In this document: one piece after another, positions 14,577 through 62,366 of the stretch
Layout: the number at the start of each line of letters is the position of its first letter
Numbering within the stretch: position 1 is the first letter of the stretch
Assembly (NCBI RefSeq): GCF_030271835.1
Contig: NZ_CP127389.1
Location: 2,578,001-2,642,000, forward strand
From: Proteus appendicitidis
GTDB lineage: Bacteria > Pseudomonadota > Gammaproteobacteria > Enterobacterales > Enterobacteriaceae
Direction: 5' to 3'
Length of the DNA stretch: 64,000 nt
Notes under the pieces: model-generated
Told to the model about the DNA's origin: nothing
The model's input: only the letters and a program-made list of their open reading frames with translations
Databases searched by the model: none
Made by a program: the position numbers and the translations under genes

Positions 14577-14969
14577 TTAATCTGGTTTTTGGGGCCATTG
14601 AATATCAACACCATCATTAGTATCTAGCTTTGATAAGTCTATCAAATATTTCATTAATAATTTTCTTCTTTCTCTTTCATCTAATGATATAATTCCTAGC
14701 TCAATAGAATAATCCAATGGTTTTAATTCATTAATTACCCATTCTATATTTCTTTTTTTCTTATCATTAGCTATTAAAATAAAATCTTCGTTTTTTATTA
14801 AATTAACGAGTATTGGATAGCCATCTTTATCTGCCTGAATCTCTTTATCTTTTCCTTGATAAAAAAGGAGTTCAGAATAATATTTAGTAGAAATTAATTT
14901 AATATCATCTGGCATTTCATCATGAATATCTTTATGGAAAAAACCATTGCTTGATGCAGAATAGTACAT
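14577..14969 (-). CDS. Tail fibre assembly (Tfa-like) chaperone
   Basis: About 130 residues, the last gene of the tail operon, directly after the fibre gene. The start MYYSASSNGFFHKDIH and the acidic linker are typical of Tfa-type tail-fibre assembly proteins, which help fibre C-termini trimerise. The ATG at 14969 is chosen since AGAGGA lies six bases upstream; an ATG at 14975 is too close to it. Position after the fibre gene supports the call. The C-terminal part is divergent and ends in DIQWPQKPD, a common Tfa ending. Confidence 0.8.
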   Translation of the reverse strand: MYYSASSNGFFHKDIHDEMPDDIKLISTKYYSELLFYQGKDKEIQADKDGYPILVNLIKNEDFILIANDKKKRNIEWVINELKPLDYSIELGIISLDERERRKLLMKYLIDLSKLDTNDGVDIQWPQKPD

Positions 14970-14983
14970 ATACATTCCTCTTT

Positions 14984-16546
14984 TTAGTATCCAATAGCGA
15001 ACCAATAATAACTATTTTCATAAGATTGATGTATCATTTTAAAATTAGATTTAGTTAAATCTATAACTGATACTCCATTATTATATGGATCTTGATTTAA
15101 TTTACTTGAAACTGAAATTACAGACGTACATTTATTTGGAAATGATAATGGAAAAGTTATAGTTTTACTTCCATCCCTAGGAATATTTCCTGAATACCCC
15201 CACTGATAAATAACACCTGTATCATTACATTTCCACCAACCATTATCTGCTTTGCTTGCTGTATTTTTAGAACCATAGTTCCCTTTTGGTTGATATTTAT
15301 TATCAGACTCACCTTTTGAATAACTATATCCAGAAGCTAAATAATTTCCTTTTGGCTGATACTTACCATCAGACTCACCTTTTGAATAACTATACCCCGA
15401 AGCTAGATAATTCCCTTTCGGTTGATATTTACCATCTGATTCGCCTTTGGAATATGCGCCTACATCACCTGCAGTTGGTTTATTTTGACTATTAAACTCT
15501 TTTGCCCATGGTGTAAAACCTTCGTTACCATAATGGCTACGAGAATAAATACGGCTCGAGTTATAAACATAATAAAGTTGAGTAATACCCGCATTTTTTA
15601 AAACAATTAATGTACCCGCCATGGCTTCTGGGTAATTTAAATTTGTCGCTGCATTCGCATTTGCAGACTGGAAATAAATACCGGCGGTTTTATAGTTATT
15701 TAAATTTTGATTAGCGCCAATTGAAATCGCCTGATTAGAAAAAATATCTTGCGATGTTACCGTTACATCACCACTCAATGGCTTATCATTAACTTTACGT
15801 GTGGCAGCAACATAATTACCTTTCGCTTGATATCTATTATCCGCTTCAGATTTTGAGTAACTATAACCCGCGGCTTGGTAATTCCCTTTCCCCTGATATT
15901 TACTATCAGATTCGGCTTTAGTATAGCTTTCGCCTTTATTGGCATAATTTCCCGAAGGTTGATAACTTCCTTTTGGCTGATATTTACCATCAGATTCGGC
16001 TTTGGTATAGCTTTCGCCTTTATTGGCATAATTTCCCGCGGGGGCATAATTCCCTTTAGGTTGATATTTCGTATCAGATTCAGCTTTTGAATAGCCATGG
16101 CCTTCAACTTGATATTTACCTACAGGTTGGAAGCGTTTATCGGCATCATCTTTAGAATAAGCACCAACATCATTCGCATTAATATCTGCTTTTAATTCAA
16201 TCCATGCATTACCTGCAACTGGCTCTACATTATTATTTTCAATTTTAGACTGCCAAGCTTTATTTTTATGATAAACCACACTACGAATAGGATAAGGTTT
16301 ACCTGCTTCCGACCACTTAGCAAAACCCTGCAATTGCATTTCACCAATAGACTCAGTGATATCGTGAAATAAACTATTCATTTTTTCACGTTCAATATCT
16401 TTTGCTGCCGGATCAGTGACTTGGTCACGCTCATAATCGTAACCATAACCTTGTGTATAAGACACTGAACCATCAGATTGAATTTCAACAGGCACAACTG
16501 TTTTATCCCCTTGTGTTGCAAAGGGGGTTTTAAATATTTTAGTCAT
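14984..16546 (-). CDS. Tail fibre protein with tandem repeats
   Basis: A 520-residue fibre that would bind the target cell surface and so set killing range. The N-terminus (about 1-130) is the baseplate-attachment part. The shaft carries about eight copies of a repeat of about 22 residues with the core ESDxKYQPKGNY and YSK, interrupted by a spacer domain (about 265-375). The C-terminus (about 440-520, WWKCNDTGVIYQWGY ... YYWFAIGY) resembles the gp53-like fibre tip domain. The protein is asparagine-, serine- and tyrosine-rich. It follows the DUF2612 gene and precedes the assembly chaperone. Confidence 0.88.
   Translation of the reverse strand: MTKIFKTPFATQGDKTVVPVEIQSDGSVSYTQGYGYDYERDQVTDPAAKDIEREKMNSLFHDITESIGEMQLQGFAKWSEAGKPYPIRSVVYHKNKAWQSKIENNNVEPVAGNAWIELKADINANDVGAYSKDDADKRFQPVGKYQVEGHGYSKAESDTKYQPKGNYAPAGNYANKGESYTKAESDGKYQPKGSYQPSGNYANKGESYTKAESDSKYQGKGNYQAAGYSYSKSEADNRYQAKGNYVAATRKVNDKPLSGDVTVTSQDIFSNQAISIGANQNLNNYKTAGIYFQSANANAATNLNYPEAMAGTLIVLKNAGITQLYYVYNSSRIYSRSHYGNEGFTPWAKEFNSQNKPTAGDVGAYSKGESDGKYQPKGNYLASGYSYSKGESDGKYQPKGNYLASGYSYSKGESDNKYQPKGNYGSKNTASKADNGWWKCNDTGVIYQWGYSGNIPRDGSKTITFPLSFPNKCTSVISVSSKLNQDPYNNGVSVIDLTKSNFKMIHQSYENSYYWFAIGY
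15275..16130. repeat. Intragenic tandem repeats in the fibre gene
   Basis: Units of roughly 66-81 bp recur in the fibre shaft, coding ESD-KYQPKGNY repeats. Two neighbouring units near 15289-15430 are almost identical at the DNA level, which could allow copy-number change by recombination or slippage. Confidence 0.75.
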
Positions 16547-16551
16547 AGGAA

Positions 16552-17208
16552 TTATTCTCCGAAATTACTCTTCAGAAAGTTTTTACGATATTGACCATAA
16601 CCAAAGGCTTTCTTGGTTACGATACGATATTTGACACCCACGCCAGAAGGACGCGGCATTAAGTCGAAGTTTTCTAATAAAAGGCGTAAACGTTCATCTG
16701 GATTAAAATTAAAAACGTAATACATATACGTCATATCAAAAGGATCGAGCACAAAAACTTTGCTATCTTCACGCCAGAAAAAACGTTTAAGGAACTCATT
16801 AATATTGGTCACGGTAGGGCTTTGGGTGAGATTAAAATAACGCATTCTCACCAGCATTCTTTTTTGATCTAAAGTCAGCGATAGAGTGTAATCAGCATTT
16901 CGTCGAAAGTTTGCCTTAAAATTGGCTTTCTTTTTACCAAAACCAAAACCTATTTTATTTTTATCACTAGGAGGAATATCTATTCCTAAAGGCACATCTA
17001 AAATGCGTGACCATACTGATAAACCAAAATCGTTAGCTGTATCAATATTAAATACATCTCGGTACCAGTTTTGCCAAAATAATACCGTAGATTGATTAAA
17101 GTAAGCCGCTTTTAAATGTGCTAATGCTTTTAGCTTATCTGCATTTTCATATTGCCAGAGGATCGCTTTAAGTAGATCAGAATGAAAATCAAATTCTTGA
17201 ATATTCAT
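16552..17208 (-). CDS. DUF2612 family tail/baseplate protein (gpI-like position)
   Basis: A 218-residue protein located between baseplate J and the fibre, the position of P2 gpI. It matches the DUF2612 phage family: an N-terminal helix with ADKLKALAHLKAAYFNQS, FWQNWYRDVFNIDTANDFGL and a DVPLGIDIPPS turn. It would link the baseplate wedge to the fibres. It overlaps the baseplate J gene by 4 bp. Confidence 0.82.
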   Translation of the reverse strand: MNIQEFDFHSDLLKAILWQYENADKLKALAHLKAAYFNQSTVLFWQNWYRDVFNIDTANDFGLSVWSRILDVPLGIDIPPSDKNKIGFGFGKKKANFKANFRRNADYTLSLTLDQKRMLVRMRYFNLTQSPTVTNINEFLKRFFWREDSKVFVLDPFDMTYMYYVFNFNPDERLRLLLENFDLMPRPSGVGVKYRIVTKKAFGYGQYRKNFLKSNFGE

Positions 17209-18392
17209 ACGATCACCACTTGTACTGCCCCTTTTGGTAATCGGGCAATTTGATTAAGACCAATAGGAATTAATGCAACATTCCAATTCTTTCCATCTGT
17301 TGAAAGCTCCACTTTAGTGACAAATAAATGAGGCTCCACCGCATTAACCGCGGCTGAAATTTCAAAAGGAGAAACTTCTCGCCCGACCACCAGCCCATTG
17401 TCTCCATCTATTTCACCCTGTACCCATTTCTCTAACGCATTAGGAATAATGGTTTGCGCATCAATATTGGATTTTTTGACAGAAACACGGCAAAACACCG
17501 ATACTTCTTTCGGTCGTGAAAACTTAATAGGATATTCTTGACCACTTGCTGGCTCTATTACCTTTATTTCAATATCACCATTAAATGCAGCACCTATTGT
17601 TTTTGTTCTTAATAATGATTTAGCAATTTCATGGCTATCTCCACCTTCTATACACACATAAATGCTATGCGGTAATAATGAAATGCCATCGACAATTAAT
17701 GCCTTATCATTAAAATTTTCACGAAAAGAAAGGGAATTAACTCCCTCTAATTCATATAGCGAAGAAGTAATTGCTTCAGCGACGCTGACTGTATTTTTAG
17801 CGAGTGTTTGTTTACGCCGACGCCTTGCTTTTATATCTGACTCAGCATGACGACCAACAACTGCATGGGTTAAGTTATTCACTTTTTCCCATCCCAATAC
17901 AGAACTGGCCACTTTATTTAATTGCCCAATACCACAAGTAATAGCCCCATATTCTTTGGCTCGCATATCGCCTTTAATTTTCCCATTATTAGCGATAATT
18001 AATGGCGATAACGTTTCAAAAACAGCGCCCATTGTTGTGAGAGCCTGAGAACCTTTAGGAATAATAGTACCGGGAATGCCAGTAAACTCGACATCACTTA
18101 AATAGGAATGTGTGGCATTAATACGCTCTCCGCCCATTAACGCCCATATTGCATCGAGAAAAACACCACCAGCAATATCTGGATTTATTTGATTTGCCAG
18201 TTCAGCATTATTACGAACAATCGCATCTCTATTTTCAATTTCCATGGTTGCCAATACCCCTTGTGGGGTTTCTGGCGATAAATTAATAGATTGGCCAAAT
18301 ACAGTACGAAATTCATCTTCGACATTATTTCGTAACGTCGATGTATCTGGCACAATCACCCCTTTATTATTAATATAACGATAGTCAGCCAT
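17205..18392 (-). CDS. Baseplate J-like protein
   Basis: A 395-residue wedge protein of the gpJ/gp47 family of contractile tails. The N-terminus NNVEDEFRTVFGQSINLSPETPQGVLATMEIENRDAIVRNNAE region is a standard opening, followed by FLDAIWALMGGER and a TGIPGTIIPKGSQALT motif. Full length. It overlaps the gp25-like gene by 8 bp and the DUF2612 gene by 4 bp, as expected in a tightly coupled tail operon. Confidence 0.92.
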   Translation of the reverse strand: MADYRYINNKGVIVPDTSTLRNNVEDEFRTVFGQSINLSPETPQGVLATMEIENRDAIVRNNAELANQINPDIAGGVFLDAIWALMGGERINATHSYLSDVEFTGIPGTIIPKGSQALTTMGAVFETLSPLIIANNGKIKGDMRAKEYGAITCGIGQLNKVASSVLGWEKVNNLTHAVVGRHAESDIKARRRRKQTLAKNTVSVAEAITSSLYELEGVNSLSFRENFNDKALIVDGISLLPHSIYVCIEGGDSHEIAKSLLRTKTIGAAFNGDIEIKVIEPASGQEYPIKFSRPKEVSVFCRVSVKKSNIDAQTIIPNALEKWVQGEIDGDNGLVVGREVSPFEISAAVNAVEPHLFVTKVELSTDGKNWNVALIPIGLNQIARLPKGAVQVVIV

Positions 18393-18729
18393 TCAATGTA
18401 AATCCTCCATATATCGTGCGTATATCTGCCTGATATTTCAATGTTCCCTCTTCTAGAAAAGCATGGAAATAAGTGATAGAGACAACTTCCTCTATTTCAG
18501 CAATACGTTGTCGAAACGCCATTTCAAATAAAGGAAGATCAACTTGTCGGCTAAATGTTGCTGACCAATAAGGGATACCTTTATCTTTTTTATGTAGCAT
18601 TTCACCACGGACAGCCTTAATAAAATGCTGACAAAGATTTCTTACTGCATCATCGTTGTCACAAATTTGAAGGTTACCATCAGCACCTATCGCAAAATCA
18701 TTCTGCTGGTTTATTGAAAATGTCCTCAT
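18385..18729 (-). CDS. GPW/gp25-like baseplate wedge protein
   Basis: A 114-residue protein at the usual place immediately before baseplate J. It starts with the pattern FAIGADGNLQICDNDDAVRNLCQHFIKAVRGEM seen in gp25/DUF2634-type wedge subunits, and the rest has the alternating beta pattern of the family. It overlaps both neighbours by a few bases. Confidence 0.82.
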   Translation of the reverse strand: MRTFSINQQNDFAIGADGNLQICDNDDAVRNLCQHFIKAVRGEMLHKKDKGIPYWSATFSRQVDLPLFEMAFRQRIAEIEEVVSITYFHAFLEEGTLKYQADIRTIYGGFTLNG

Positions 18730-19418
18730 ATTGGGCTTCCTGTATTGTCTTTCCCTGCTTGCACCCCACTATGGGTATGTGTGGAGCCGATATCTTTTCC
18801 GTTATGGCGCATCAACCCACCTTTTGAATCGCTATTACCATTTACAGCGTAATTACCATTAACAGTAACATTGCCAGTAAATATCGTTTCAGGGGCGTTG
18901 ATTTCATATTTTGGGGTTTCTAAGACAACTTTATCGTTATGAAGAGAGAAACAGACAGAACCATCCATTGATTGAATAACCAAGGCATCAATATTTTTTC
19001 CATCAATTGCCCATCCTTTGATCGTGTCAGGAAAAAACATCGCATCGCTAAATGAATGTAGTCGCGTTGTATTGGGTTGATCTTCTAAACCACCACGCTG
19101 AAAAATAAGGCTAATATCGCGATCACTGGCTTTTAACCAGCCAAAATCACCTGGTTTAATGGGCGCTCTAATAAAAAAACCACCGCCACCAAAGCGAAAT
19201 ACGGGAATATTAGCAACCGGTGCGCGAGAGATTTTTTCATCATCCGTAGTCAACATCATGACCAAGGGCTTTATCATGGCTCGGTTAGTTTTTTCATCAT
19301 AATTAATGACGGTTGCGGGCAACATATCATCTGTATTCATCATCAAATGGCGAAATGCAGACGAAAAAGCCCCAGCCAATGAACCAACATTGGCAATATC
19401 ATTATTGGGTTTACTCAT
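18726..19418 (-). CDS. Gp138-type membrane-puncturing spike / baseplate assembly protein V
   Basis: About 230 residues, with an N-terminal OB-like domain (ATVINYDEKTNRAMIKP) and a C-terminal beta stretch with NGNYAVNGNSDSKGG and an HNGKDIGSTHTHSGV end. The HxH tip motif is typical of metal-binding spike tips that pierce the outer membrane. The ATG at 19418 is chosen; the longer frame needs a TTG. It lies between the hub and gp25-like genes. Confidence 0.85.
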   Translation of the reverse strand: MSKPNNDIANVGSLAGAFSSAFRHLMMNTDDMLPATVINYDEKTNRAMIKPLVMMLTTDDEKISRAPVANIPVFRFGGGGFFIRAPIKPGDFGWLKASDRDISLIFQRGGLEDQPNTTRLHSFSDAMFFPDTIKGWAIDGKNIDALVIQSMDGSVCFSLHNDKVVLETPKYEINAPETIFTGNVTVNGNYAVNGNSDSKGGLMRHNGKDIGSTHTHSGVQAGKDNTGSPI

Positions 19419-19420
19419 AA

Positions 19421-20233
19421 TTAAGCTCGTTTGCACGTTGCGGTATAGGCGAAATCAGCATCGTGAGAGGCAACTTTAAATTCAAGCTGCTCGATAATGT
19501 AATCACCATTTAGTGAGGTATTTAGTTTGCTATCAAGGCGAAGCATTCCGCCTAATTCAGAGGTACTATCGATAAGATAACTCACCGTCAATCCACTCTC
19601 TGTGGCTTTAGGAATGCCAATCATGCCTGAATTCATATTCAAAATACGAAATCGGCTTTTTAATGCTTTATCGTCATCTTTTACAAATAACGTATCATCA
19701 TCAATAAAAGCTTTAACATTTCCTGACTCTTGTAAACGCTCTATTTGATGTAATGCAGAGCCACAATAATACCAATTAGCAATATTCTTATCGGTCGCCT
19801 GGAAATCTAATTTCACACCACAGTCATTAGCAATGGCTAACGCTATTTCACTCAATTTTTGAATTGCGCCACCACTAGAAGAAATAATTTTTCCAGAACA
19901 ATGATTACTGGTTTTTGCGGATAATGTTACGGTGACATTTGGAGGAGAGTCTATTTCTGCACTGGTGATATCACCAATAAAAAGCGAAAATAACCCAGTG
20001 TTAATTCGACCAACTTCTAAATAAAGCCGCCGAACTTGTTTGTTTTTATTATAAGGGCTGGTTTCCGTCAGTAAATAATCTCTTGTCTCGGCATTAAGCC
20101 CTGTAATAGCGATTTTACATTCGTTTTGTAATGGATTTGCATATTTCTTTCCTCCTGCTGATATGCGCAATCCTTCATACCATTGAAGCCTTTCGCCGAC
20201 CTCAATACCTACCCTTATTCGCCGAAGATCCAT
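19421..20233 (-). CDS. Baseplate hub protein
   Basis: About 270 residues, in the position of the gp27/gpD-type hub, before the spike gene. The beta-rich start, the ECKIAITGLNAETRDYLL segment and LYLEVGRINTGLFSLFIGDIT match this baseplate hub group in DUF3383-type tails. The ATG at 20233 is favoured by GGAG eight bases upstream; an ATG at 20239 is also possible. It overlaps the upstream plug gene. Confidence 0.78.
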   Translation of the reverse strand: MDLRRIRVGIEVGERLQWYEGLRISAGGKKYANPLQNECKIAITGLNAETRDYLLTETSPYNKNKQVRRLYLEVGRINTGLFSLFIGDITSAEIDSPPNVTVTLSAKTSNHCSGKIISSSGGAIQKLSEIALAIANDCGVKLDFQATDKNIANWYYCGSALHQIERLQESGNVKAFIDDDTLFVKDDDKALKSRFRILNMNSGMIGIPKATESGLTVSYLIDSTSELGGMLRLDSKLNTSLNGDYIIEQLEFKVASHDADFAYTATCKRA

Positions 20234-20522
20234 CTTCATTACTCCAATACACTAATGATTGTGTTTTTGTAAATTCCTCATACCACGGCAAAGCATCATT
20301 TTCTGTTAGAAAAACTAAATTAATCCCTTGGTTTAAATAGCGATAAGGAATAATAGGTGTATTAGCAACTAAGCGAATACCTGTAATAAGTATTTCACCA
20401 TCTCGCTCAATATCACAAAACATTGTTTGATTAGCGACTTTCAACGTAAAAACCCAATCAACACCGGCTATTTCGACAGAAAATCGCTGATTAGGAATAG
20501 CTTGTAATGGAATAACTTGCAT
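20202..20522 (-). CDS. Baseplate plug family protein (DUF6983-like)
   Basis: A 106-residue protein with the family opening MQVIPLQAIPNQRFSVEI and a FCDIERDGEILITGIRL core. Small proteins of this kind lie between the Dit-like and hub genes in DUF3383-type myovirus tails. It overlaps the hub gene by more than 30 bp. The 69-residue plus-strand frame across it is a shadow. Confidence 0.75.
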   Translation of the reverse strand: MQVIPLQAIPNQRFSVEIAGVDWVFTLKVANQTMFCDIERDGEILITGIRLVANTPIIPYRYLNQGINLVFLTENDALPWYEEFTKTQSLVYWSNEDGSSANKGRY

Positions 20523-20534
20523 TTTATCTACCTC

Positions 20535-21023
20535 CTAACTTTCTTTTTTTCCGGTTTGTGTTGATTTTTTGCTTTTGACATTTCCACGATTGACCGTAGA
20601 GGTTTGCTTTGGTTTTTTTGTTGATTTAGAGGATTTTTTATTATATTCAGGCTCTATTGTTTTCCATTCTATAAACTTAAGCTTTAATTCAATGGCATTC
20701 ACTTTTTGAGGATCTTCATCATGAGTCAAACTTTCTAACAACATCGGTTGATAGGTTCTGACTCTGGTTTGAATTCCCACTAATGTATGCTCGTCATAAA
20801 GCTGCTTTATAATAGAATAACGATTTACAATATCACCCGTTAATAGCAACTCGACACTTATACTGATAGGATCAATAATGATGTGATCACTACGATTTTC
20901 ACCATTTTCAACCGCAAATTTAATGACCTGATGACTATCAGTAATCGAAACTTTCATCGGATTAACGCTATCAAATAGTGTTGCGAATGACTCTAAATCA
21001 AAAATTCTAACTTCAGTTATCAT
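20535..21023 (-). CDS. Dit-like baseplate/tail protein
   Basis: A 162-residue protein next to the tape measure. The N-terminal 115 residues match a Dit-like phage tail N-domain (KVSITDSHQVIKFAVENGENRSDHI, SISVELLLTGD). The last 35 residues are a lysine-, serine- and threonine-rich tail, probably disordered. It would cap the distal end of the tube and join it to the baseplate hub. Confidence 0.75.
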   Translation of the reverse strand: MITEVRIFDLESFATLFDSVNPMKVSITDSHQVIKFAVENGENRSDHIIIDPISISVELLLTGDIVNRYSIIKQLYDEHTLVGIQTRVRTYQPMLLESLTHDEDPQKVNAIELKLKFIEWKTIEPEYNKKSSKSTKKPKQTSTVNRGNVKSKKSTQTGKKES

Positions 21024-21025
21024 AA

Positions 21026-23329: not shown

Positions 23330-23870
23330 TATCTCTCCTTTGACGCCGCAAGCGCCTCGTTATAACGATTGGTAATCGCGATCTCCCACAGATCAAAGGC
23401 TTCCTCTAGATCTATAGTTGTTTTGAGTTCTGTGAAGGAGGCGAAACCCGCGGAGATGATGACTGCAAAGAAGCCATCAGCGTTTTTATAATCGACGGGA
23501 GAGAACCGCTGAACTTGCCTAGAAGGTATTGTAGGAAATTTTGGCTCCCGTCTTTGCCGAAAAAACTGGTGTTATACTTCAGCATTTCGAGTTCAAGACG
23601 AATCAAAGCTTCCCCATCAGGCACATGATTATCAATTAATGTGCTAGTTTTTAGATAAATTTCTTGTCCTTCTTTTTCAACTGCCACATAAGCCATCATT
23701 TTTAACATGGCTTCTTTGCTAACTTCATAATCGCCAATTTTAGGTGCATTTGATAAAGGATATTTAGCGAGAATTTCTCGCCCAATCGTTGCAGGTAATC
23801 GGCTAATAATAAAAGTATGTTCTTCACGATCACTATCAATAACAGTGATTTCTTTTGGTTTAATTAACAT
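23329..23870 (-). CDS. Tail assembly chaperone, -1 frameshift (G-T type) fusion product
   Basis: In codon phase, AGT TTT TTC GGC contains the slippery heptamer T TTT TTC (23559-23565). Slipping back one base there opens a frame of 76 codons that ends at 23329-23331, overlapping the tape-measure ATG. The frame is closed by a TAA five codons upstream of the slip site and contains no ATG, GTG or TTG where a separate protein could start. The predicted fusion is about 180 residues and ends with a typical T-domain: SAGFASFTELKTTI, EEAFDLWEIAITNRYNEAL. Such gpG-gpGT pairs are needed for tape-measure assembly in many phages. Confidence 0.8.
23412..23870 (-). CDS. Tail assembly chaperone, zero-frame product
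   Basis: A 152-residue protein between tube and tape measure, where contractile and siphophage tails encode gpG/gpE-type chaperones. The N-terminal 100 residues (HTFIISRLPATIGREILAKYP, ALIRLELEMLKYNTSFF) form the conserved domain; the last 48 residues, after the slippery site, are serine- and proline-rich and end SQNSKQL. The zero-frame stop is at 23412-23414. A second product from a -1 frameshift is described separately. Confidence 0.85.
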   Translation of the reverse strand: MLIKPKEITVIDSDREEHTFIISRLPATIGREILAKYPLSNAPKIGDYEVSKEAMLKMMAYVAVEKEGQEIYLKTSTLIDNHVPDGEALIRLELEMLKYNTSFFGKDGSQNFLQYLLGKFSGSLPSIIKTLMASLQSSSPRVSPPSQNSKQL

Positions 23871-23933
23871 GATTAAATTCCATAAAAAAGGCGGCCGAAG
23901 CCGCCATTAGATGAATAAGAATAACGCTAAAAA

Positions 23934-24386
23934 TTAACGCGCTCTGACACGATCAAAATCTTGGAAAATAAAGGTGTACTGCTTAGATTTGAGACGCCCT
24001 TCACTCGCAATTGAATTACCACGGCTACCATTAGTAATTCGACCATTACGAGCCGTGGTAATAGAGCCATCGCCATAAGAAGCCACTAACGTAATAATAT
24101 CGCTTGTAGGACGACGTCCTCGTCTTGCTGTATTTGCATCAAGCAAAATAGCCAAGTTTTCGTCTTCTTCACTGCCTGCTAATACATTAATCGTCACCGT
24201 TTGAGGTGTAGGAGCCGACCAACTCACTAAATTACCATTAATATCCACTGCGGTTTGTGTGATATCTACTGCTGGTAGATCTAGCGGATCACCATTATCT
24301 GCAAATGTGCTAATAGGAATACCAGCAGGAAATGTGTTACTTGCCTGAATAATTAAACTTAAACCTGTTGCTGAAATATCGTTCAT
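23934..24386 (-). CDS. Tail tube protein (DUF3277-like)
   Basis: A 150-residue beta-rich protein directly after the sheath gene, the usual place for the tube. It starts MNDISATGLSLIIQASNTFPAGI and has a repeated VTINVLAGSEEDENLAILL strand. It matches the DUF3277 phage family found beside DUF3383 sheaths. It would stack as hexamers within the sheath. Confidence 0.82.
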   Translation of the reverse strand: MNDISATGLSLIIQASNTFPAGIPISTFADNGDPLDLPAVDITQTAVDINGNLVSWSAPTPQTVTINVLAGSEEDENLAILLDANTARRGRRPTSDIITLVASYGDGSITTARNGRITNGSRGNSIASEGRLKSKQYTFIFQDFDRVRAR

Positions 24387-24396
24387 TGTTTGTTCC

Positions 24397-25884
24397 TTAA
24401 ACTAAATTGTGTGAGCCTTCAACTTTACGAACCCAATCGCCTTTACCGTAAATTAATACATATTTCATGGTGTATTCTGGTAAATTAGAAGGACCTGTTT
24501 CTTCAACGATTTCAGCGTTGTACCAATAACCTTTATTTTGTACGTCGTGCCACGCTAAATCATCACCTGATGCATCTGTAATTGCGATTTTTTGTACTTC
24601 GGCCAGCGTTTTACCGGTAAGAATAGTGCCATTATTTAATGCTTTTGTAACAGCACCAGCAATAACCATCATCGCTTTTGCTTCACCATCTTTATTAGCT
24701 GGAATACCACGAGTGGAAAGCAATAAGCTTAACCATTGCTGTGCGATATAGGCTTTTAACCATTGCTCATTAGTATGAACACTCATATCTAATGGATTAG
24801 AAGCATTTCCACATAAAAAACCACGTTGATAGAAACTAATATCAGTGCCCGTAACAGCCGTTTCACCGTAATAGTTCACACGTAATTTATCTAATCGATC
24901 CGCAGCAAGATCTGTCTTAACTTGAGATGGGAAAGTGATACCAAATTGACGATACATATAGTTAGTGGTCGCATTTGTGCGATCAAAATCTGTTGCCGCC
25001 ATAATTGCCATCGGTAGAGCTTGAACAAAAAAACCATCATCTGTTTTTAAATTTAATCCCGTTGATGCGGTGCCGATTAATGCTTTACTATAAATTTCGG
25101 CTTGTTTATCCGGAACTGACAAATAGAGCTGATATTTTACATTTTCACCCGCAATGTACTCTGCTAACTCAACACTTTGCTCGACTGAAAGCTCAGTTAA
25201 GAATGTTGCACTACCAAATGAATCAGAAATTGCTTCGGCAGCGATAAATGCTTGAAGTGCCGTTTGAGCCACATTGCCTTCAGATGCTTCTGCGTCACTT
25301 AACCCCAGAGCATCGGCTAAAGGTGAGTGATCCATCGTGATTTTCGCTTTTTCTTGTACGCCACCACTTAGCAAGAAAGCACCATCAAGAGCATTAAAAG
25401 TGACGTAGCAATTTGCAAATTGAGATTCGCTTTCAGCATTTAATTTAGCCTGGATCAGAGAAGCAACATCAGCGTAGGACTCAACATCTTTTAAAGAAAT
25501 ATCAGTCATATTTTTAGAGATATCACCGATAGTTAAAGTAAATGCCCCCTCTTCAATTAACTTTAATTTATCAAGCGTTGCTGCTGGCGTACCAAATAAT
25601 GCCGGAGCGCGACCTACCGGTTCAAAAGAAGCAATTTGTAGCTCTTTAGGTTTACTAATAGGTGCGGGGCTAACATAACTGAAATATTGACGAGCAAATT
25701 TCGCTTCTGGTGATCCTGCACCAAGTAATTCATCCACTTGCCCGCTAGCAAATTCAAGTACTTTCCCTGCTGGAATTTTAGGATTTGTTGAGAAAATACG
25801 AGCTGTAAGTTTGCGCATAGGTGCGGCCGATGCACCAATAACCGCACTCGCGATATCAATATAGCGCGTTTGTTTAATAGACAT
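24397..25884 (-). CDS. Contractile tail sheath (DUF3383 family)
   Basis: A 495-residue protein with the opening SIKQTRYIDIASAVIGAS and a C-terminal domain containing GYWYNAEIV and TMKYVLIYGKGDWVRKVEGS, the marks of DUF3383 sheath proteins of myoviruses. Its presence shows that the tail is contractile. Full length with no frameshift. The ATG follows AAGGATAAAT. It is followed at once by the tube gene. Confidence 0.9.
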   Translation of the reverse strand: MSIKQTRYIDIASAVIGASAAPMRKLTARIFSTNPKIPAGKVLEFASGQVDELLGAGSPEAKFARQYFSYVSPAPISKPKELQIASFEPVGRAPALFGTPAATLDKLKLIEEGAFTLTIGDISKNMTDISLKDVESYADVASLIQAKLNAESESQFANCYVTFNALDGAFLLSGGVQEKAKITMDHSPLADALGLSDAEASEGNVAQTALQAFIAAEAISDSFGSATFLTELSVEQSVELAEYIAGENVKYQLYLSVPDKQAEIYSKALIGTASTGLNLKTDDGFFVQALPMAIMAATDFDRTNATTNYMYRQFGITFPSQVKTDLAADRLDKLRVNYYGETAVTGTDISFYQRGFLCGNASNPLDMSVHTNEQWLKAYIAQQWLSLLLSTRGIPANKDGEAKAMMVIAGAVTKALNNGTILTGKTLAEVQKIAITDASGDDLAWHDVQNKGYWYNAEIVEETGPSNLPEYTMKYVLIYGKGDWVRKVEGSHNLV

Positions 25885-25892
25885 ATTTATCC

Positions 25893-26405
25893 TTAAATAC
25901 GAAATAGATTAGAAATAAGTAAATTTGTTGCAGCAGTGTCTAAAGATAAGGTACTGGAAAAAGTGATATTAAAATCAAATGAAGGATTATGCTCATAGCT
26001 ATTTCCAGCATTCATTATTGGCGCTCGCCTAATTTCGCTCGCACGTTGTATCCCTATTCCCACTTTTCTCATTGATTCGACAAAAGACAACGAATTAATA
26101 ATCATTCGAGTCATTCGAATTAAATCACCTGCTGTTAAATTTGGATGTTGTTTAATAAAACCTTGAACCTGAAACGTTAATTCGATCAGTTGTTGTTCTT
26201 TATGGTTTGCATTATTACCTTGAATATTATAATTTCTTTTTTGCCAACCTTGGGCAACCTCCTTTATAGGGAAAAACATAACAATATTATTATCTTGTTT
26301 TTTATCTGGTTGATAACCAGCAATAACATCAACATTAATATTTGCTAATTTAAATTGTTTTAATAGTTGTTCACGAATGGCAATATTAATATCATTATCT
26401 TTCAT
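25893..26405 (-). CDS. Tail terminator / neck protein (gp12-like, LIC_12616 family)
   Basis: A 170-residue protein located directly before the sheath. The pattern NIVMFFPIKEVAQGWQKRNY and the ELTFQVQGFIKQHPNLTAGDL core fit the phage neck-terminator group found upstream of DUF3383 sheaths. In a tailocin it would cap the head-proximal end of the tube. GGAGG lies upstream of its ATG. Confidence 0.72.
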   Translation of the reverse strand: MKDNDINIAIREQLLKQFKLANINVDVIAGYQPDKKQDNNIVMFFPIKEVAQGWQKRNYNIQGNNANHKEQQLIELTFQVQGFIKQHPNLTAGDLIRMTRMIINSLSFVESMRKVGIGIQRASEIRRAPIMNAGNSYEHNPSFDFNITFSSTLSLDTAATNLLISNLFRI

Positions 26406-26501
26406 TTCACCTCCTTAATATAGCTCTCCTTTTCTTTAAAAATTTAATCTATTTTATTTTATAAATAATTTTTATTGATTATAAATTAATTAAGTTAATT
26501 T

Positions 26502-26951
26502 TTAATTAATACACTCTTGTCGAATATAATCTTGTAAACCTAAAATGATCTGTTCTGACTGCGCAATTCGTTCTCTGAGTAGCCAATAATTTCGGATAGC
26601 GGTGTCAGTAGGTCTGGCGGTGTTTGCATCAACCAAGCCGGCGGTGGAAGTGGCTGAGAGTTTGTGACATTCTGCTTTGATATACACCCGCTCAGGAGCG
26701 CGCTCGCTAATATCACGCAACTGATCAATTTCTTTTTTTGCATGAACAAGTTCCTGTAAATGACGATTATCAAGTTGATTAAGCTGATTTATTCTTAATT
26801 GATAATCTTTATTCTCTGCAATCTGCTGAATAAGAGATTGATAAATATTATTGTATTCCTGTTTCAAGGATTTGTTTTTATCAATTAACCAAATCAATCC
26901 TATACCTAGACATAAGATCGCTATTACCATTATTTTTAATAAATAATTCAT
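26502..26951 (-). CDS. Rz-like spanin, inner-membrane subunit
   Basis: A 149-residue protein with one N-terminal TM helix (about 2-23) and a long periplasmic coiled coil (about 30-90), the architecture of Rz i-spanins that fuse inner and outer membranes at lysis. The ATG at 26951 overlaps the endolysin TGA in an ATGA junction. A complete Rz1 frame is nested within it in the +1 frame, the classic embedded pair. Confidence 0.88.
   Translation of the reverse strand: MNYLLKIMVIAILCLGIGLIWLIDKNKSLKQEYNNIYQSLIQQIAENKDYQLRINQLNQLDNRHLQELVHAKKEIDQLRDISERAPERVYIKAECHKLSATSTAGLVDANTARPTDTAIRNYWLLRERIAQSEQIILGLQDYIRQECIN
26540..26743 (-). CDS. Rz1-like spanin, outer-membrane lipoprotein, nested in Rz
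   Basis: A 67-residue lipoprotein encoded entirely within Rz in another frame. The start MQKKKLISCVILASALLSGC is a lipoprotein signal with the lipobox LSGC (Cys20). The mature part contains PLPPPAW and further prolines, as Rz1 proteins do. I begin it at the internal ATG (26743) because the upstream residues do not fit a signal peptide. Confidence 0.85.
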   Translation of the reverse strand: MQKKKLISCVILASALLSGCISKQNVTNSQPLPPPAWLMQTPPDLLTPLSEIIGYSENELRSQNRSF

Positions 26952-27352
26952 AATAACAACCAAGCATCTTCAAAAACTTTTTCTGAATAAGGTTGATAGC
27001 CAAGTTCAATATTAACAATCGCTACGGTTAAAGGAATGGTGACACTTTTTAATTGTGTATTAATTGAATCATCGGATTCAATGCCAATTTCTTTTGATGC
27101 CAGGCTAATATAGCCGGCTGTATTATTTTCGTTAGGTGGCGCATAACGATTGATAATTGTTTTAATGGTGTTTAAACCATATTTTTTTTGGTACGTTTGT
27201 AATAATTTGTAGATAGCTCGTATTCCATATTCAGGTGAAATAAATTGGCAAAAATCTTTATCGCTTTGCTCTATGGATAATCCTTGCCATTTCGAACCGT
27301 GCCGGATATTACCGGGGTTATTATTACGCTCACCTCGTGCTATTTTAGCCAT
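26948..27352 (-). CDS. Phage endolysin / P5-like muralytic protein
   Basis: A 134-residue protein between holin and Rz. The opening RGERNNNPGNIRHGSKWQGL and the FISPEYGIRAIYKLLQTYQKKYGL stretch match the small structural-protein-P5-like lysozyme family of phages and prophages. It would cleave peptidoglycan at release. No signal peptide, so it depends on the holin. It overlaps the holin gene by 8 bp. Confidence 0.8.
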   Translation of the reverse strand: MAKIARGERNNNPGNIRHGSKWQGLSIEQSDKDFCQFISPEYGIRAIYKLLQTYQKKYGLNTIKTIINRYAPPNENNTAGYISLASKEIGIESDDSINTQLKSVTIPLTVAIVNIELGYQPYSEKVFEDAWLLL

Positions 27353-27653
27353 TTTTAACTCCTGCTCTTCCTTTAAGGAGTTTACTCACGGAATCTACTC
27401 CGACATAGCCAATAAACACACTGGCTAAGTAAGCAAACTCATGATTTATATTAAATAAAATTAGAATATCTTTAATAAACCAGGCAAACATTGCACACAT
27501 CAGCCCATCTATAGAGGTTTTTTTCCATCCTCCGCCGTTATATAAACCTCGAAGAATAGCCATTCCTCCAGCTAGAGAGGCTGATATTCCTTGTTCTTTC
27601 ATTGAAGAAAGGACAATAAATATCTGTTCCCATAGATCTGGATTTTCTTTCAT
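27345..27653 (-). CDS. Phage holin
   Basis: A 102-residue membrane protein with about three hydrophobic stretches (about 22-38, 46-64, 70-88) and a charged C-terminus, matching the lambda-like holin family (Phage_holin_3 type). It is the first gene after the late promoter and terminators and so the first product of Q-dependent transcription. Placement of lysis genes ahead of the tail genes is common in tailocins. Confidence 0.85.
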   Translation of the reverse strand: MKENPDLWEQIFIVLSSMKEQGISASLAGGMAILRGLYNGGGWKKTSIDGLMCAMFAWFIKDILILFNINHEFAYLASVFIGYVGVDSVSKLLKGRAGVKNG

Positions 27654-27782
27654 TGTTTCTCATGGCTTACCTCCAATAGGAGGAACTGTAATAAATAATA
27701 TACTCATCCACAGCACTTAAATTTAAGTACTGTTTTAACATGAGTATGTTTATGTTTTATCTAATTAGATAAGTGGCAGATA

Positions 27783-27807
27783 TAAAAAAAGACCACATGG
27801 TGGTCTT
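27783..27807 (-). terminator. Second tandem leader terminator (tR'2-like)
   Basis: On the minus strand, the perfect 8-bp stem AAGACCAC / GTGGTCTT with a 3-nt loop is followed by seven T residues. It lies between the late promoter and holin. Confidence 0.82.
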
Positions 27808-27867
27808 CTATTGAAGATAAAATTTAGCAGATATCGTTAATTTATATTAGTTAAGACAATAGAGATA

Positions 27868-27896
27868 CAAAAAAGCCCCACTTCAAAAGCGGGGCT
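27868..27896 (-). terminator. First tandem leader terminator (tR'1-like)
   Basis: On the minus strand, AGCCCC pairs with GGGGCT (plus an inner CTT/AAG) and six T residues follow. It is about 45-70 nt after the predicted late transcription start. Confidence 0.82.
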
Positions 27897-27947
27897 ATTT
27901 ATATTCTGTTGTAAGGTCTTTAGATACAAATCTCTCACTGTGGAGTT

Positions 27948-27976
27948 ATAGTATGCTTATTTTTCCTGAAAGTCAA
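27948..27976 (-). promoter_or_regulatory. Late promoter (pR'-like)
   Basis: On the minus strand TTGACT (27971-27976), a 17-bp spacer and TACTAT (27948-27953) form a near-consensus sigma-70 promoter. It starts just after the Q gene and feeds into two terminators, the lambda pR'-tR' plan. Confidence 0.8.
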
Positions 27977-28015
27977 TAACTAGTTTCTACAAAAATAAAT
28001 AAATATAGAAAATTA

Positions 28016-28831
28016 TTACTTAACAGTCACTTCTTGAAGAATTTTTTCTGATAAAGACTCTTCTTTAAAGCACTCTTCAACTAAATGTTCAAATAACGGT
28101 TTATAGTTACTGTACGCAACAGTTTTAGAAACACTCACTACTGTTTGTACTTGCTCTAATACTTCACTGAATTTTAAGCGAGGATACCCACGACCTGAAC
28201 ATTGATTACAAGGTTTGAAAACAGCCCCCCCCTGCTTTTCACTCTCTTTTTTATCTAAAACTTGACCACGTCCATGACAACGACATGCTAAACGAATTTC
28301 AGCTTTGCCCTTACATGTAGGGCAAACAACCCGAGTTGTTTCTCTTACTTCACGGTAAGAAGTGTTATTTTGGGGTTTAACTTTAAGCTCCCCGTTAAGA
28401 TTTCGCGCAAGCTCTTTAACAGATTTTGAGGTGTAACTTTTGGTAGTAAAAACGTCAACTTCAATAAATCCATTACTGCAGTCAGGGCACGCTTTCTTAC
28501 TTGCGGCACTTCTTGCGTAATCTTGGAAAGCATAATTAGCAATAATGTGTAAAACATTAGCTTTCACATCTTCATTAAGTTTATCAATGGCTTTGTATTG
28601 ATAAGCTTGAGTTAATGCGTATTGATAAAGGCTTTCAATTGCTTCACTAGGATGATTAATACTATGTTTAGCTAAAAATAACTCTATACCCATTCGCCCT
28701 TTTCGAGCGGCTAAACTAATTGATGTCATTACATCAGTCACTGACAGTGAATCCACTGTTTTCACTGTTCTTACATCACTCAATACTATGCTTTTTGGTG
28801 AAAAATATTTAGGTAAGTCCGCTAGTCTCAT
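28016..28831 (-). CDS. Phage antitermination protein Q
   Basis: A 271-residue antiterminator with the family opening LPKYFSPKS. It contains a DnaJ-like zinc-binding region of paired cysteines: CPDC (115/118), CPTC (170/173), CRC (183/185) and CNQC followed by SGRGY (208/211). Q proteins bind DNA at the late promoter and load onto the paused polymerase, making it ignore downstream terminators. The promoter and two terminators directly downstream are the expected target. It is driven from a leftward promoter under the repressor operators. Confidence 0.92.
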   Translation of the reverse strand: MRLADLPKYFSPKSIVLSDVRTVKTVDSLSVTDVMTSISLAARKGRMGIELFLAKHSINHPSEAIESLYQYALTQAYQYKAIDKLNEDVKANVLHIIANYAFQDYARSAASKKACPDCSNGFIEVDVFTTKSYTSKSVKELARNLNGELKVKPQNNTSYREVRETTRVVCPTCKGKAEIRLACRCHGRGQVLDKKESEKQGGAVFKPCNQCSGRGYPRLKFSEVLEQVQTVVSVSKTVAYSNYKPLFEHLVEECFKEESLSEKILQEVTVK

Positions 28832-28861
28832 TTAATGCTCCTTTTGATTTCCTATCACTAC

Positions 28862-28906
28862 TTATTGGTCATCCATGTACCACGACAAGGCATGGCATTT
28901 ATGCAT
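28862..28906 (-). CDS. Possible 14-codon leader ORF upstream of Q
   Basis: ATG...TAA encodes MHKCHALSWYMDDQ and ends about 30 bp before the Q ATG. A GAG-containing stretch precedes it. It may be a leader peptide or chance; no other gene such as Cro lies in this leader. Confidence 0.2.
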   Translation of the reverse strand: MHKCHALSWYMDDQ

Positions 28907-29006
28907 CTAAATCACTCGCATTTTACGGCGTTATCTCAACGTGATTTTTACTTACCACTCTTGCATTGGTTTATTTAGTTACTTTTTTGTACTTTTCGCA
29001 CTTTTA

Positions 29007-29021
29007 TTAACCAATAGTTAA
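29007..29021. promoter_or_regulatory. Repressor operator O1
   Basis: TTAACCAATAGTTAA is a near-perfect dyad, one base away from the perfect palindrome at 29063. It overlaps the predicted leftward start site. Confidence 0.7.
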
Positions 29022-29049
29022 TGTTATATTTTAACCAAAATGACGTCAA
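29021..29049 (-). promoter_or_regulatory. Leftward promoter for Q
   Basis: On the minus strand TTGACG (29044-29049), a 17-bp spacer and TAACAT (29021-29026). A TTAACCA half-site (29031-29037) lies in the spacer and operator O1 covers the start site, so repressor should block it. Confidence 0.65.
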
Positions 29050-29062
29050 GTAGCAAAGGAAA

Positions 29063-29077
29063 TTAACCAATGGTTAA
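29063..29077. promoter_or_regulatory. Repressor operator O2, spanning the repressor start codon
   Basis: TTAACCAATGGTTAA is a perfect 15-bp palindrome; the ATG of the repressor gene is inside it, which points to autoregulation. Confidence 0.7.
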
Positions 29078-29807
29078 AAATGATAATAAAACGGAGTTCA
29101 CAAAAAGGCTTCAAGAAGCTTGCTTAGATTCAGGGATTGCAGGACGTGGGTTAGGTAAAAGAATTACAGATGCACTCGCGGAACAAGGCATAAAAGTCAG
29201 TGCTCCAGCAGTATGGAAATGGCTAAATAATGAATCAATTCCCGATCCAACAAATATCTTAGCATTAAGTCAATGGCTCGATGTTCGAGCAGAATGGCTA
29301 GAATATGGGCGAGGAGCAAAAAAAAATGATGGCGTTTCAGTAAATGAAATGACACCCGTTGATGATTGGGATAATAATACGCCGATAGAACGAGATGAAG
29401 TCGAGATCCCCTTCTATACTACTATTGAATTAGCTGCAGGTTTTGGAAGTTGTACCACTGATAATCAAAAGGTGGAATTATTGAGATTTTCTCGTTCTAC
29501 ATTTAATCGCTATGGCGTTCAACCTAGCGATGCCGTTGCTTTTAAAGTTCATGGTGACAGCATGTCCCCTGTTATTCCTGATGGTTCGATTGTCACTATC
29601 AGTACAGGGCATACAAAAATTGTTGATGGCGGTATTTATGCTATTCAACAAGGCGATCTTTTGAGGGTCAAAATTTTACATCGACTCCCCAATAACACCA
29701 TTATCATCCGTAGCTATAATACTATTGATTACCCAGATGAGCGTTCTACATTAGAAGAAGTGAAAATTTTGGGGCGAGTATTTAATTGGTCTGTGATGGG
29801 TTGGTGA
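29070..29807 (+). CDS. LexA/CI-type S24 repressor of the tailocin cluster
   Basis: A 245-residue repressor. Residues about 10-80 form a helix-turn-helix (GLGKRITDALAEQG, APAVWKWLNNESIPDPTNILALSQWL). The C-terminal half is an S24 peptidase domain with an Ala-Gly scissile bond in IELAAGFGS (Ala123-Gly124), catalytic Ser164 in HGDSMSP and Lys201 in GDLLRVKIL. These are the elements needed for RecA-stimulated self-cleavage, so the cluster should be SOS-inducible. Gene is divergent from Q with shared operators and is followed by its own terminator. Confidence 0.93.
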   Translation: MVKNDNKTEFTKRLQEACLDSGIAGRGLGKRITDALAEQGIKVSAPAVWKWLNNESIPDPTNILALSQWLDVRAEWLEYGRGAKKNDGVSVNEMTPVDDWDNNTPIERDEVEIPFYTTIELAAGFGSCTTDNQKVELLRFSRSTFNRYGVQPSDAVAFKVHGDSMSPVIPDGSIVTISTGHTKIVDGGIYAIQQGDLLRVKILHRLPNNTIIIRSYNTIDYPDERSTLEEVKILGRVFNWSVMGW

Positions 29808-29929: not shown

Positions 29930-30005
<76 letters not shown>

Positions 30006-30011
30006 TAATTC

Positions 30012-30099
30012 TGGCGGAAGGATAGAGATTCGAACTCTAGGATGGTTTCCCATCGGCGGTTTTCAAGACCGCTGCCTTCAGCCACTCGGCCATCCTTCC
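30012..30099 (-). tRNA. serT-like: tRNA-Ser(TGA), copy 1
   Basis: An 88-nt class II tRNA with an encoded CCA and a long variable arm. It starts GGAAGGATGGCCGAGTGG; the anticodon loop CTTGAAA gives TGA (reads TCA), and GTTCGAATC forms the T-loop. Confidence 0.95.
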
Positions 30100-30109
30100 A
30101 TAGCGCGGA

Positions 30110-30138
30110 ATTATGCCTATCTCTGACCTCGCTGTCTA
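30110..30138 (-). promoter_or_regulatory. Promoter of tRNA module 1
   Basis: On the minus strand TAGACA (30133-30138), a 17-bp spacer and CATAAT (30110-30115), followed by a GC-rich TCCGCGC discriminator, as expected for a stringently controlled stable-RNA promoter. The same block is conserved before module 2. Confidence 0.7.
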
Positions 30139-30352
30139 GTCCTGATCGTAAAAAAAATGACTTTTTTATCTGTTTGCTTAATCTTCAGTCTATTTTTGAT
30201 TAAAAAGTGCTAACTTACTAATATGTTGGTTAAATTTTGATAACTAGAGATAAAAAATCATCGCTATATCGCGAGATAAACGGAGTAACCCAAAAGGAAT
30301 TAAATAGAAATTAACTAAGAGGAAAAATACAAAGTAGAATTATAGATAAGAA

Positions 30353-30384
30353 AAAACCCGTTACCTCTTGCGAGATAACGGGTT
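30353..30384 (-). terminator. Terminator of tRNA module 2
   Basis: Minus-strand stem AACCCGTTATC / GGTAACGGGTT followed by T residues, just after tRNA-Thr copy 2. It is the counterpart of the module 1 terminator with two base differences. Confidence 0.8.
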
Positions 30385-30390
30385 CTTATA

Positions 30391-30466
<76 letters not shown>

Positions 30467-30472
30467 TAATTC

Positions 30473-30560
30473 TGGCGGAAGGATAGAGATTCGAACTCTA
30501 GGATGGTTTCCCATCGGCGGTTTTCAAGACCGCTGCCTTCAGCCACTCGGCCATCCTTCC
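30473..30560 (-). tRNA. serT-like: tRNA-Ser(TGA), copy 2
   Basis: Identical to copy 1 at a 461-bp offset; full cloverleaf with variable arm and CCA. Confidence 0.95.
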
Positions 30561-59269: not shown

Positions 59270-59274
59270 TAATT

Positions 59275-59305
59275 AAAAAACGGCTCTATAAAAGAGCCGT
59301 TTTAT
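59275..59305. terminator. Bidirectional terminator between xaxB and nuoN
   Basis: Perfect 11-bp stem AAAACGGCTCT / AGAGCCGTTTT with a 5-nt loop and T runs on both strands. Confidence 0.9.
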
Positions 59306-59341
59306 TATTTAACTATACGTTATTACAACACGTTATTACGA

Positions 59342-60811: not shown

Positions 60812-60817
60812 GGCGAA

Positions 60818-62347: not shown

Positions 62348-62366
62348 GGCGCAATGTGTCCCTTAA

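Follow-up and report, generated by a model that had tools for sequence, protein, structure and literature searches.

The window analysed here is the whole 64-kb stretch G000:C1:2578001-2642000 of the complete 4.1-Mb genome of Proteus appendicitidis. At window positions 14577-29807 it carries an element that is very probably a domesticated R-type tailocin. The element has an ortT-like gene on one side and the tRNA-Thr/Ser-rcsD region on the other, a place that it would have occupied from roughly the time when the genus arose. A domesticated R-type tailocin had already been proposed in a sequence-only reading of this DNA, and this proposal is supported by the comparison of 20 Proteus species, by selection, fibre tips and control sites, and by the headless layout of the locus. 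Judged by its protein families, the tail belongs to the E217/Pam3 lineage with a DUF3383 sheath and is neither of the P2 nor of the Mu type. The gene set indicates that the element most likely kills rival bacteria, and the S24 repressor suggests that it would be induced by the SOS response.

Gene content, tail lineage and prophage relatives

The element codes for a contractile tail, a baseplate, a fibre, a lysis set, a Q antiterminator and an S24 repressor, and every frame is open (Table 1). On the minus strand, the first half runs through Q, holin, endolysin, Rz with a nested Rz1, tail terminator, sheath, tube and tail chaperone, and the second half through tape measure, Dit-like protein, plug, hub, spike, gp25-like protein, J-like protein, DUF2612 protein, fibre and fibre chaperone. 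The S24 repressor is oriented opposite to the Q, lysis and tail genes. The identical gene order is found at the identical site in nine other Proteus species, so the arrangement in the window is beyond chance. We scanned 19 proteins of the element against Pfam and PHROGs, and none of them matched families for capsid, portal, terminase, replication or integrase proteins. The PHROG category "head and packaging", which was attached to the DUF2612, plug and lysozyme-like proteins, turned out to be label noise on tail and lysis families. What is present is a complete open contractile tail with its baseplate and its own lysis genes (holin, endolysin, Rz and nested Rz1), and the head, packaging and integration genes of a functional prophage are missing from the element. 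The earlier reading had described this content, with all frames open and without head, replication or integrase genes, and each gene class was located as it had stated; it lacked the Rz1-like lipoprotein frame nested in Rz at 26540-26773.

The Pfam tail families are the DUF3383 sheath, E217 gp29, gp32 and gp41, and Pam3 gp18, which stand in place of the P2 ones. No Mu tail family was found among the Pfam and PHROG matches. A six-sheath profile searched against PDB matched E217-type sheaths at E 5e-79 to 9e-80. The hub protein matched E217 gp41 at E 9e-17, and its match to the Pam3 hub was weak (E 8.5e-4). These families, together with the match to the solved E217 sheath, bear out the earlier statement that the tail is not derived from P2. 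Among 50,697 phage records, the best sheath was that of Stenotrophomonas phage B2, with 46.6% identity, and none of the 398 matching records reached 60%.

Prophage relatives carry this tail together with a head. We compared 77 related-sheath loci, some of which are one genome in two collections (L118/L131, L119/L133, L127/L181), so that the counts of 12 and 65 given below are not independent. In 12 of the 77 loci, Rz stands directly before the tail terminator without any head gene, and the sheath is at least 85% identical to that of the window. The other 65 have sheaths of 69–84% identity. A capsid match lies between Rz and the terminator in 61 of them, and the remaining four (L176, L177, L179, L191) are partial or odd. 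The Rz-terminator interval measures 10.9 kb in the Proteus prophage L036 of genome G013, where it holds terminase, portal, capsid and neck genes, versus 96 bases in the window. The prophages L036 and L037 of that genome have sheaths of 78–79% identity and the tail gene order of the window, but L036 has head genes, and its lysis and Q types differ from those of the window. An unrooted tree built from seven tail proteins separates the ten loci of the tailocin from six prophages of Proteus at 100/100 support. A prophage of another genus (G358) encodes a holin and an endolysin of the window type (55% and 64%) directly before terminase and head genes, an arrangement that is likely a picture of the ancestor. 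Such an ancestor would have been a temperate phage of the E217 type, and its head genes, which stood between Rz and the tail terminator, would later have disappeared. Separately, three loci from the IMG/VR database (L176, L179, L191) have Rz shortly before the terminator or sheath, weak or no head matches, and other regulators and lysis genes; here a parallel loss of the head is possible.

Table 1. Genes and predicted control sites of the element (window positions).
Feature	Position	Strand	Basis
Tail fibre assembly chaperone (Caudo_TAP)	14577..15005	-	PF02413, E 2.7e-14
Tail fibre, 520 aa, receptor-binding tip C-terminal	14984..16546	-	PF21882 at 439-520
Baseplate protein, DUF2612	16552..17208	-	PF11041, E 3.1e-54
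Baseplate J-like wedge	17205..18392	-	PF04865; phrog_6
gp25-like sheath initiator / wedge	18385..18729	-	phrog_120, E 2.4e-16; PF10934 below cut-off
Gp138-like central spike with apex motif	18726..19436	-	PF18352, E 1.6e-15; PF18946 just below cut-off
Baseplate hub (E217 gp41-like)	19421..20239	-	PF22759, E 1.4e-84; solved E217 hub 8eon, E 9e-17
Baseplate plug (Pam3 gp18-like)	20202..20522	-	PF22479, E 2.7e-21
Dit-like / E217 gp38-like baseplate component	20535..21023	-	PF21821, E 1.1e-17
Tape measure protein, 767 aa	21026..23329	-	phrog_34923, E 7.9e-32; no Pfam match
Tail assembly chaperone, 152 aa	23412..23870	-	Position and conservation; no Pfam match
Inner tube protein	23934..24386	-	PF22764 (E217_Gp32), E 3.5e-56
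Contractile sheath, DUF3383, 495 aa	24397..25884	-	PF11863, E 3.7e-137; E217 gp31 8env, E 1.6e-79
Tail terminator / gateway (E217 gp29-like)	25893..26405	-	PF22756, E 4.4e-40
Rz spanin	26502..26963	-	PF03245
Endolysin / lysozyme-like protein	26948..27352	-	phrog_873, E 8e-46; no Pfam match
Holin (lysis protein S family)	27345..27653	-	PF05106, E 2.2e-25
Second late terminator-like hairpin	27784..27806	-	Sequence and alignment
Late terminator-like hairpin with T run (tR'-like)	27869..27896	-	GC-rich; sequence and alignment
Candidate late promoter (PR'-like)	27948..27976	-	Sequence and alignment
Q antiterminator	28016..28831	-	PF03589; phrog_127, E 7e-75
Operator region, predicted	28968..29077	.	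15-base palindromes 29007-29021, 29063-29077; weaker 28968-28982
Promoter-like site inside operator region	29021-29049	-	Sequence and alignment
S24 (LexA/CI-type) repressor	29070..29807	+	PF00717, E 2.4e-19; phrog_4

Inheritance, selection and fibre tips in Proteus

We compared 20 Proteus genomes, one per species, in which within-species variation was seen only through IMG/VR copies. The flank genes, rcsD and a DUF924 gene, are both present in all 20. A whole R tail lies between them in ten genomes: the window genome G000, G002, G003 (P. cibi), G004 (P. columbae), G007 (P. mirabilis ATCC 29906), G008, G013, G014, G015 (Proteus sp. FME41) and G016 (P. terrae). Seven (G001, G009, G011, G012, G017, G018 and G019, the last being P. 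vulgaris PR00166) have lost the R tail but retain the repressor and lysis parts. Loss of the R tail has left scars, namely a terminator fused beside the fibre in G019 and terminator pieces in G017. Three genomes (G005, G006, G010) have no element at the locus. In G005 (P. faecis) the interval is unassembled, and the element is called absent because the genome has neither a repressor ortholog nor a sheath of the tailocin type, apart from a sheath-like scrap of 29 residues that contains stops. A repressor ortholog with 84–100% identity stands at the locus in 17 of the 20 genomes. The earlier reading had described the element as fixed between the ortT-like gene and tRNAs. This holds for the position, which is conserved, and not for the presence, as the tail was lost in 10 of 20 species.

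The site and the age of the genes point to inheritance with the host. Ratios of nonsynonymous to synonymous substitution rates (dN/dS) were computed by the Nei-Gojobori method for nine species (36 pairs). The 12 tail genes, a set that excludes the fibre, have dN/dS of 0.03–0.20 at a mean pairwise dS of 0.15–0.37. For the flanks, dN/dS and dS are 0.04 and 0.30 (rcsD) and 0.07 and 0.31 (DUF924 gene); for the repressor they are 0.03 and 0.31, and for the fibre 0.23 and 0.53. The 12 tail genes are under strong purifying selection, with dS like that of the flanks. Toward P. mirabilis, dS is 0.5–2.3 for tail genes, 1.2 for rcsD (1.19 to the window) and 2.1 for the DUF924 gene, as if tail and flanks were of equal age. 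The tape measure has exactly 767 residues in all ten R-tail loci, and the tail assembly chaperone is 93–100% identical in the nine others. The fibre assembly chaperone is poorly conserved, being alike in two of the ten R-tail loci (the window and G015) and partial in G012. Tail and flank trees agree on the pair G000 and G013 and on the group G002, G008, G014 and G016.

The fibre was compared in nine species, the G014 fibre being left out. Its N-terminal part of about 360–400 residues is conserved, and the C-terminal 80–120 residues or so are swapped. In seven non-mirabilis species the first 360 residues or so are 82–100% identical to those of the window, and in six of these seven the tip is only 7–35% identical. 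The P. mirabilis fibre is shorter and diverges earlier. There are five tip types (G000 and G015; G004, G008 and G013; G003 and G016; G002; G007), and they are discordant with the flank tree: G000 and G013 are flank sisters but have unlike tips, and G000 and G015 are distant yet share one type. From the sequences, this is the pattern expected for target switching. A variable tip on a tail kept by selection is what is found in R-type tailocins. The check proposed in the sequence-only reading, a comparison of this locus across Proteus, thus came out in favour of a tailocin, with a conserved position, intact tail genes (all frames open in seven of the ten R-tail copies), purifying selection and swapped fibre tips.

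Spread of the locus beyond the genus was considered and rejected. A sheath search of 392 family genomes gave matches in 12 non-Proteus genomes, but no repressor ortholog was found in 127 genomes outside Proteus at E 1e-50, and head genes are present in 11 of the 13 non-Proteus sheath loci. Two loci, L211 (G223) and L217 (G021, beside an icd-like gene), have related tail clusters with no head genes within 20 kb and other neighbours; they are possibly independent tailocins or deleted prophages. Next to the element, at window positions 29930-30560, tRNA-Thr/tRNA-Ser pairs are tandemly duplicated. We rejected this duplication as an attachment-site scar, since the double pair also occurs in G006 and G010, both of which are without the element. 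In G010, rcsD is split into two frames, and this genome was therefore left out of the species tree. Elsewhere in the window, AT skew is 0.13–0.19 at positions 59001-64000, higher than in the rest.

Control region and exchange of tail modules

The repressor has Ala-Gly at residues 123-124, Ser in GDSM at 164 and Lys in RVK at 201. By the S24 motif, we take Ala-Gly to be the self-cleavage site and Ser and Lys to be the catalytic dyad. The 15-base palindrome of the repressor-Q gap has two matches with at most one mismatch in the window versus 0.07 expected, both of them exact, with the caveat that 2 of 100 shuffles also reached two matches. Alignments of the repressor-Q and Q-holin gaps were made without G009, in which the anchors were not found, and G011, and that of the Q-holin gap also without G019. 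The repressor-Q gap was aligned in 15 species, and the operator-like sites are recognisable in P. mirabilis too. In the Q-holin gap, the hairpin with the T run is kept in all 14 aligned species and the second hairpin in 13, being missing in P. mirabilis. The candidate late promoter was aligned in 14 species, and both its boxes vary somewhat. The Q-holin gap has the layout of a Q-dependent late operon, on which Q would be expected to act. Apart from the locus, a stand-alone S24 repressor (L338:6062-6754, G000:C1:2334172 region) is about 48% identical to the tailocin repressor, and its counterparts occur in 20 of 20 Proteus genomes with 45–55% identity. It was rejected as a second tailocin, since no tail genes surround it in G000; it might cross-talk with the tailocin operators.

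From these features the following course of events may be proposed. At rest, the S24 repressor would occupy the palindromic operators and keep the Q promoter silent. DNA damage would lead to RecA-prompted self-cleavage of the repressor, and Q would be made. Q would then let RNA polymerase from the late promoter pass the terminators before the holin gene, so that the lysis and tail genes are expressed as one late unit. Headless contractile tails would assemble, with the tail terminator capping them and the 767-residue tape measure setting their length, and holin, endolysin and Rz/Rz1 would burst the producer cell. Outside, the fibre tip would bind a sugar or protein on the surface of a related strain, sheath contraction would drive the spike and tube through the envelope, and the victim would be depolarised.

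The same locus takes another kind of tail in relatives. In P. vulgaris PR00166 (loci L116, L107, L117), a lambda-like tail lies between Q and holin, and the R tail is reduced to the terminator/fibre scar. One contig holds the tube, DUF6246 and a tape measure of 1120 residues, and the other gpM, L, K, I, J and a fibre. No head gene adjoins Q or holin there, in a locus that is assembled on two contigs. The contig IMGVR_UViG_2868841959_000002 (30,225 bases, read as two overlapping stretches, L221 and L132) has repressor, Q, an F-type tail as in P. vulgaris, holin-endolysin-Rz and a complete R tail, in this order; its F-tail genes are named by likeness to the P. vulgaris proteins, which alone were scanned. 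In both F-tail loci the late promoter/terminator stretch is doubled, with one copy after Q and one before holin, and the identical run between copies is 122 bases in the IMG/VR contig and 104 bases in P. vulgaris. A headless lambda-like tail within the shared control and lysis frame, as in an F-type tailocin, is thus found in relatives only, and the window has no F tail. The DUF6246 protein occurs in 11 of the 20 species genomes and at the tailocin locus only in P. vulgaris, which makes local prophages of the lambda-like kind the probable source of the F tail.

All seven species without an R tail keep the repressor, and most also keep Q, holin and endolysin. In six such species (five for some genes), dN/dS is 0.03 for the repressor, 0.10 for Q, 0.06 for holin and 0.12 for endolysin. 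In G011, Q and holin are truncated beside a transposon; G009 retains a remnant of Q, and no holin could be found there. Beside the lysis remains of G011 (L099, 3799-5450), a transposon-like pair of frames, resembling an RNA-guided nuclease and a small transposase, was noticed by eye. The tail-less cassette may be a kept self-lysis unit or may simply reflect recent tail loss. Tentatively, and with somewhat less than even confidence, we read all these loci together as a modular weapon dock. In this reading, a single repressor-Q switch and lysis cassette would gain and lose tails over evolution, so as to hold an E217-type R tail, a lambda-type F tail, both or none; each tail module would be wired in by its own copy of the Q-responsive promoter/terminator, and the tail-less species would keep an inducible self-lysis unit.

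Competing explanations and known systems

Several observations weigh against an ancestral domesticated tailocin. The R tail is absent in 10 of 20 species, with seven block losses that left remnants and three genomes without the locus. On the species tree, its presence is no more clustered than shuffled labels (233/500) and requires about six changes. In the tail protein tree G015 joins four species (99/99), but the flank tree places it outside all eight; the trees also differ within the G002/G008/G014/G016 group, where G008 and G014 shift, and around G003. Since the trees agree only partly, interspecies exchange has likely played a part. Broken genes occur in three of the ten R-tail copies: the draft of P. 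mirabilis ATCC 29906 has both sheath and holin split, the fibre gene of G014 contains an in-frame stop, and another such stop lies close to the start of the G016 holin. Finally, promoter-like sites are not above chance (10 found versus 12.5 expected), and we dropped the promoter scan as evidence, relying only on cross-species conservation. For the presence pattern, the simplest reading is repeated loss of the whole block and not slow decay.

The alternative that survives best, though it is unlikely, is that the regulated lysis cassette (repressor, Q, holin, endolysin and spanin) is the conserved unit, which would for instance release bacteriocins or public goods, and that the tails are changeable cargo. 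This would explain why the cassette outlasts the R tail under dN/dS of 0.03–0.12, and why the F-type tails of P. vulgaris and the IMG/VR contig use the same cassette. However, recent tail loss would yield equal dN/dS, the cassettes of G011 and G009 are damaged as expected of decay after tail loss, and the tail, where it is present, is under selection as strong as that on the cassette.

That the head, integration and replication genes of an E217-type prophage disappeared recently and by chance, leaving the rest to drift, is much less probable still and is largely refuted. The missing R tails, several with scars (G019, G017), and the three copies with a broken gene would fit it. The frameshifts of ATCC 29906 were rejected as proof of decay: sheath and holin are open in three P. 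mirabilis-like IMG/VR copies that are 99.1–99.3% identical to it, so the breaks may be strain-specific or errors of the draft. Drift is contradicted by the low dN/dS of the 12 tail genes in nine species at a dS like that of the flanks, by the headless layout alike in all 12 tailocin loci, by the constant tape measure length and by the conserved control regions. Moreover, a recent deletion would not be common to species so distant that rcsD dS between P. mirabilis and the window reaches 1.19.

Hardly credible at all is a tail donor or transfer device, which would complete another element's heads or deliver DNA or effectors instead of piercing: PF03237 terminases do occur at three or four other places in the home genome (the nearest about 105 kb outside the window, in a search that left out other terminase families) and a tail terminator able to join a head is retained, but tail completion alone serves headless tailocins too, no second related sheath was found in the home genome, no capsid of the related Proteus prophage matched there in a search without its own positive control, and no AAA+ ATPase or recognisable effector is among the 19 scanned proteins.

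We therefore return to the domesticated R-type tailocin and compare it with known systems. Among the matches listed in the openly licensed PubMed Central (PMC) literature, none dealt with a tailocin of Proteus or with a DUF3383 tailocin, subscription journals being outside this scope. The locus very probably encodes an R-type tailocin that is ancestral in Proteus and stems from a third phage tail lineage, and its site also takes F-type tails. Besides P2 and Mu, enterobacterial R-type tailocins would then have a third phage source. The solved structures of E217-type tails allow the particle to be modelled immediately. The locus is also a genetic candidate for the Proteus bacteriocins called proticines, for which a review tentatively suggests a link to the Dienes lines seen between swarming strains (PMC5080321). 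In the relatives with both F and R tails, the duplicated late promoter/terminator offers a concrete route for a tailocin locus to acquire a second weapon.

Pseudomonas phage E217 and cyanophage Pam3 have protein families in common with the element, and the solved E217 sheath and hub match it, but both are complete phages, whereas the element is a tail without head genes. As in the R-type pyocins of P. aeruginosa and the P2-derived tailocins xenorhabdicin and dickeyocin, the Proteus locus combines, judging by genes alone, a contractile tail that lacks a head, a regulator and lysis genes of its own, a fixed site and varied tips. Unlike the P2-derived tailocins, it has a DUF3383 sheath, an E217/Pam3-type tube, hub and plug, and an antiterminator of the lambdoid-type Q family. 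BceTMilo is a Mu-derived R-type tailocin. The Mu-derived tailocins likewise use a non-P2 contractile tail, but Mu tail families are not among the matches of the Proteus element. Two papers describe those of P. syringae and enterocoliticin as an independent co-option of such a tail (PMC12090994, PMC13030884), and another describes xenorhabdicin as genus-wide with variable fibres (PMC13280938). Injection systems of the Afp/PVC type have an AAA+ ATPase and effector cargo, neither of which is among the 19 scanned proteins. In the R/F pyocin cluster of P. aeruginosa, two unlike tails share one locus and one lysis cassette. Hybrid clusters of P. chlororaphis are described as two unlike tailocins at one locus with one shared lysis cassette (PMC12090994). 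Unlike in both of these clusters, the R tail in the Proteus relatives is of the E217 type, and each tail, in these relatives only, has its own Q-type late promoter and terminator.

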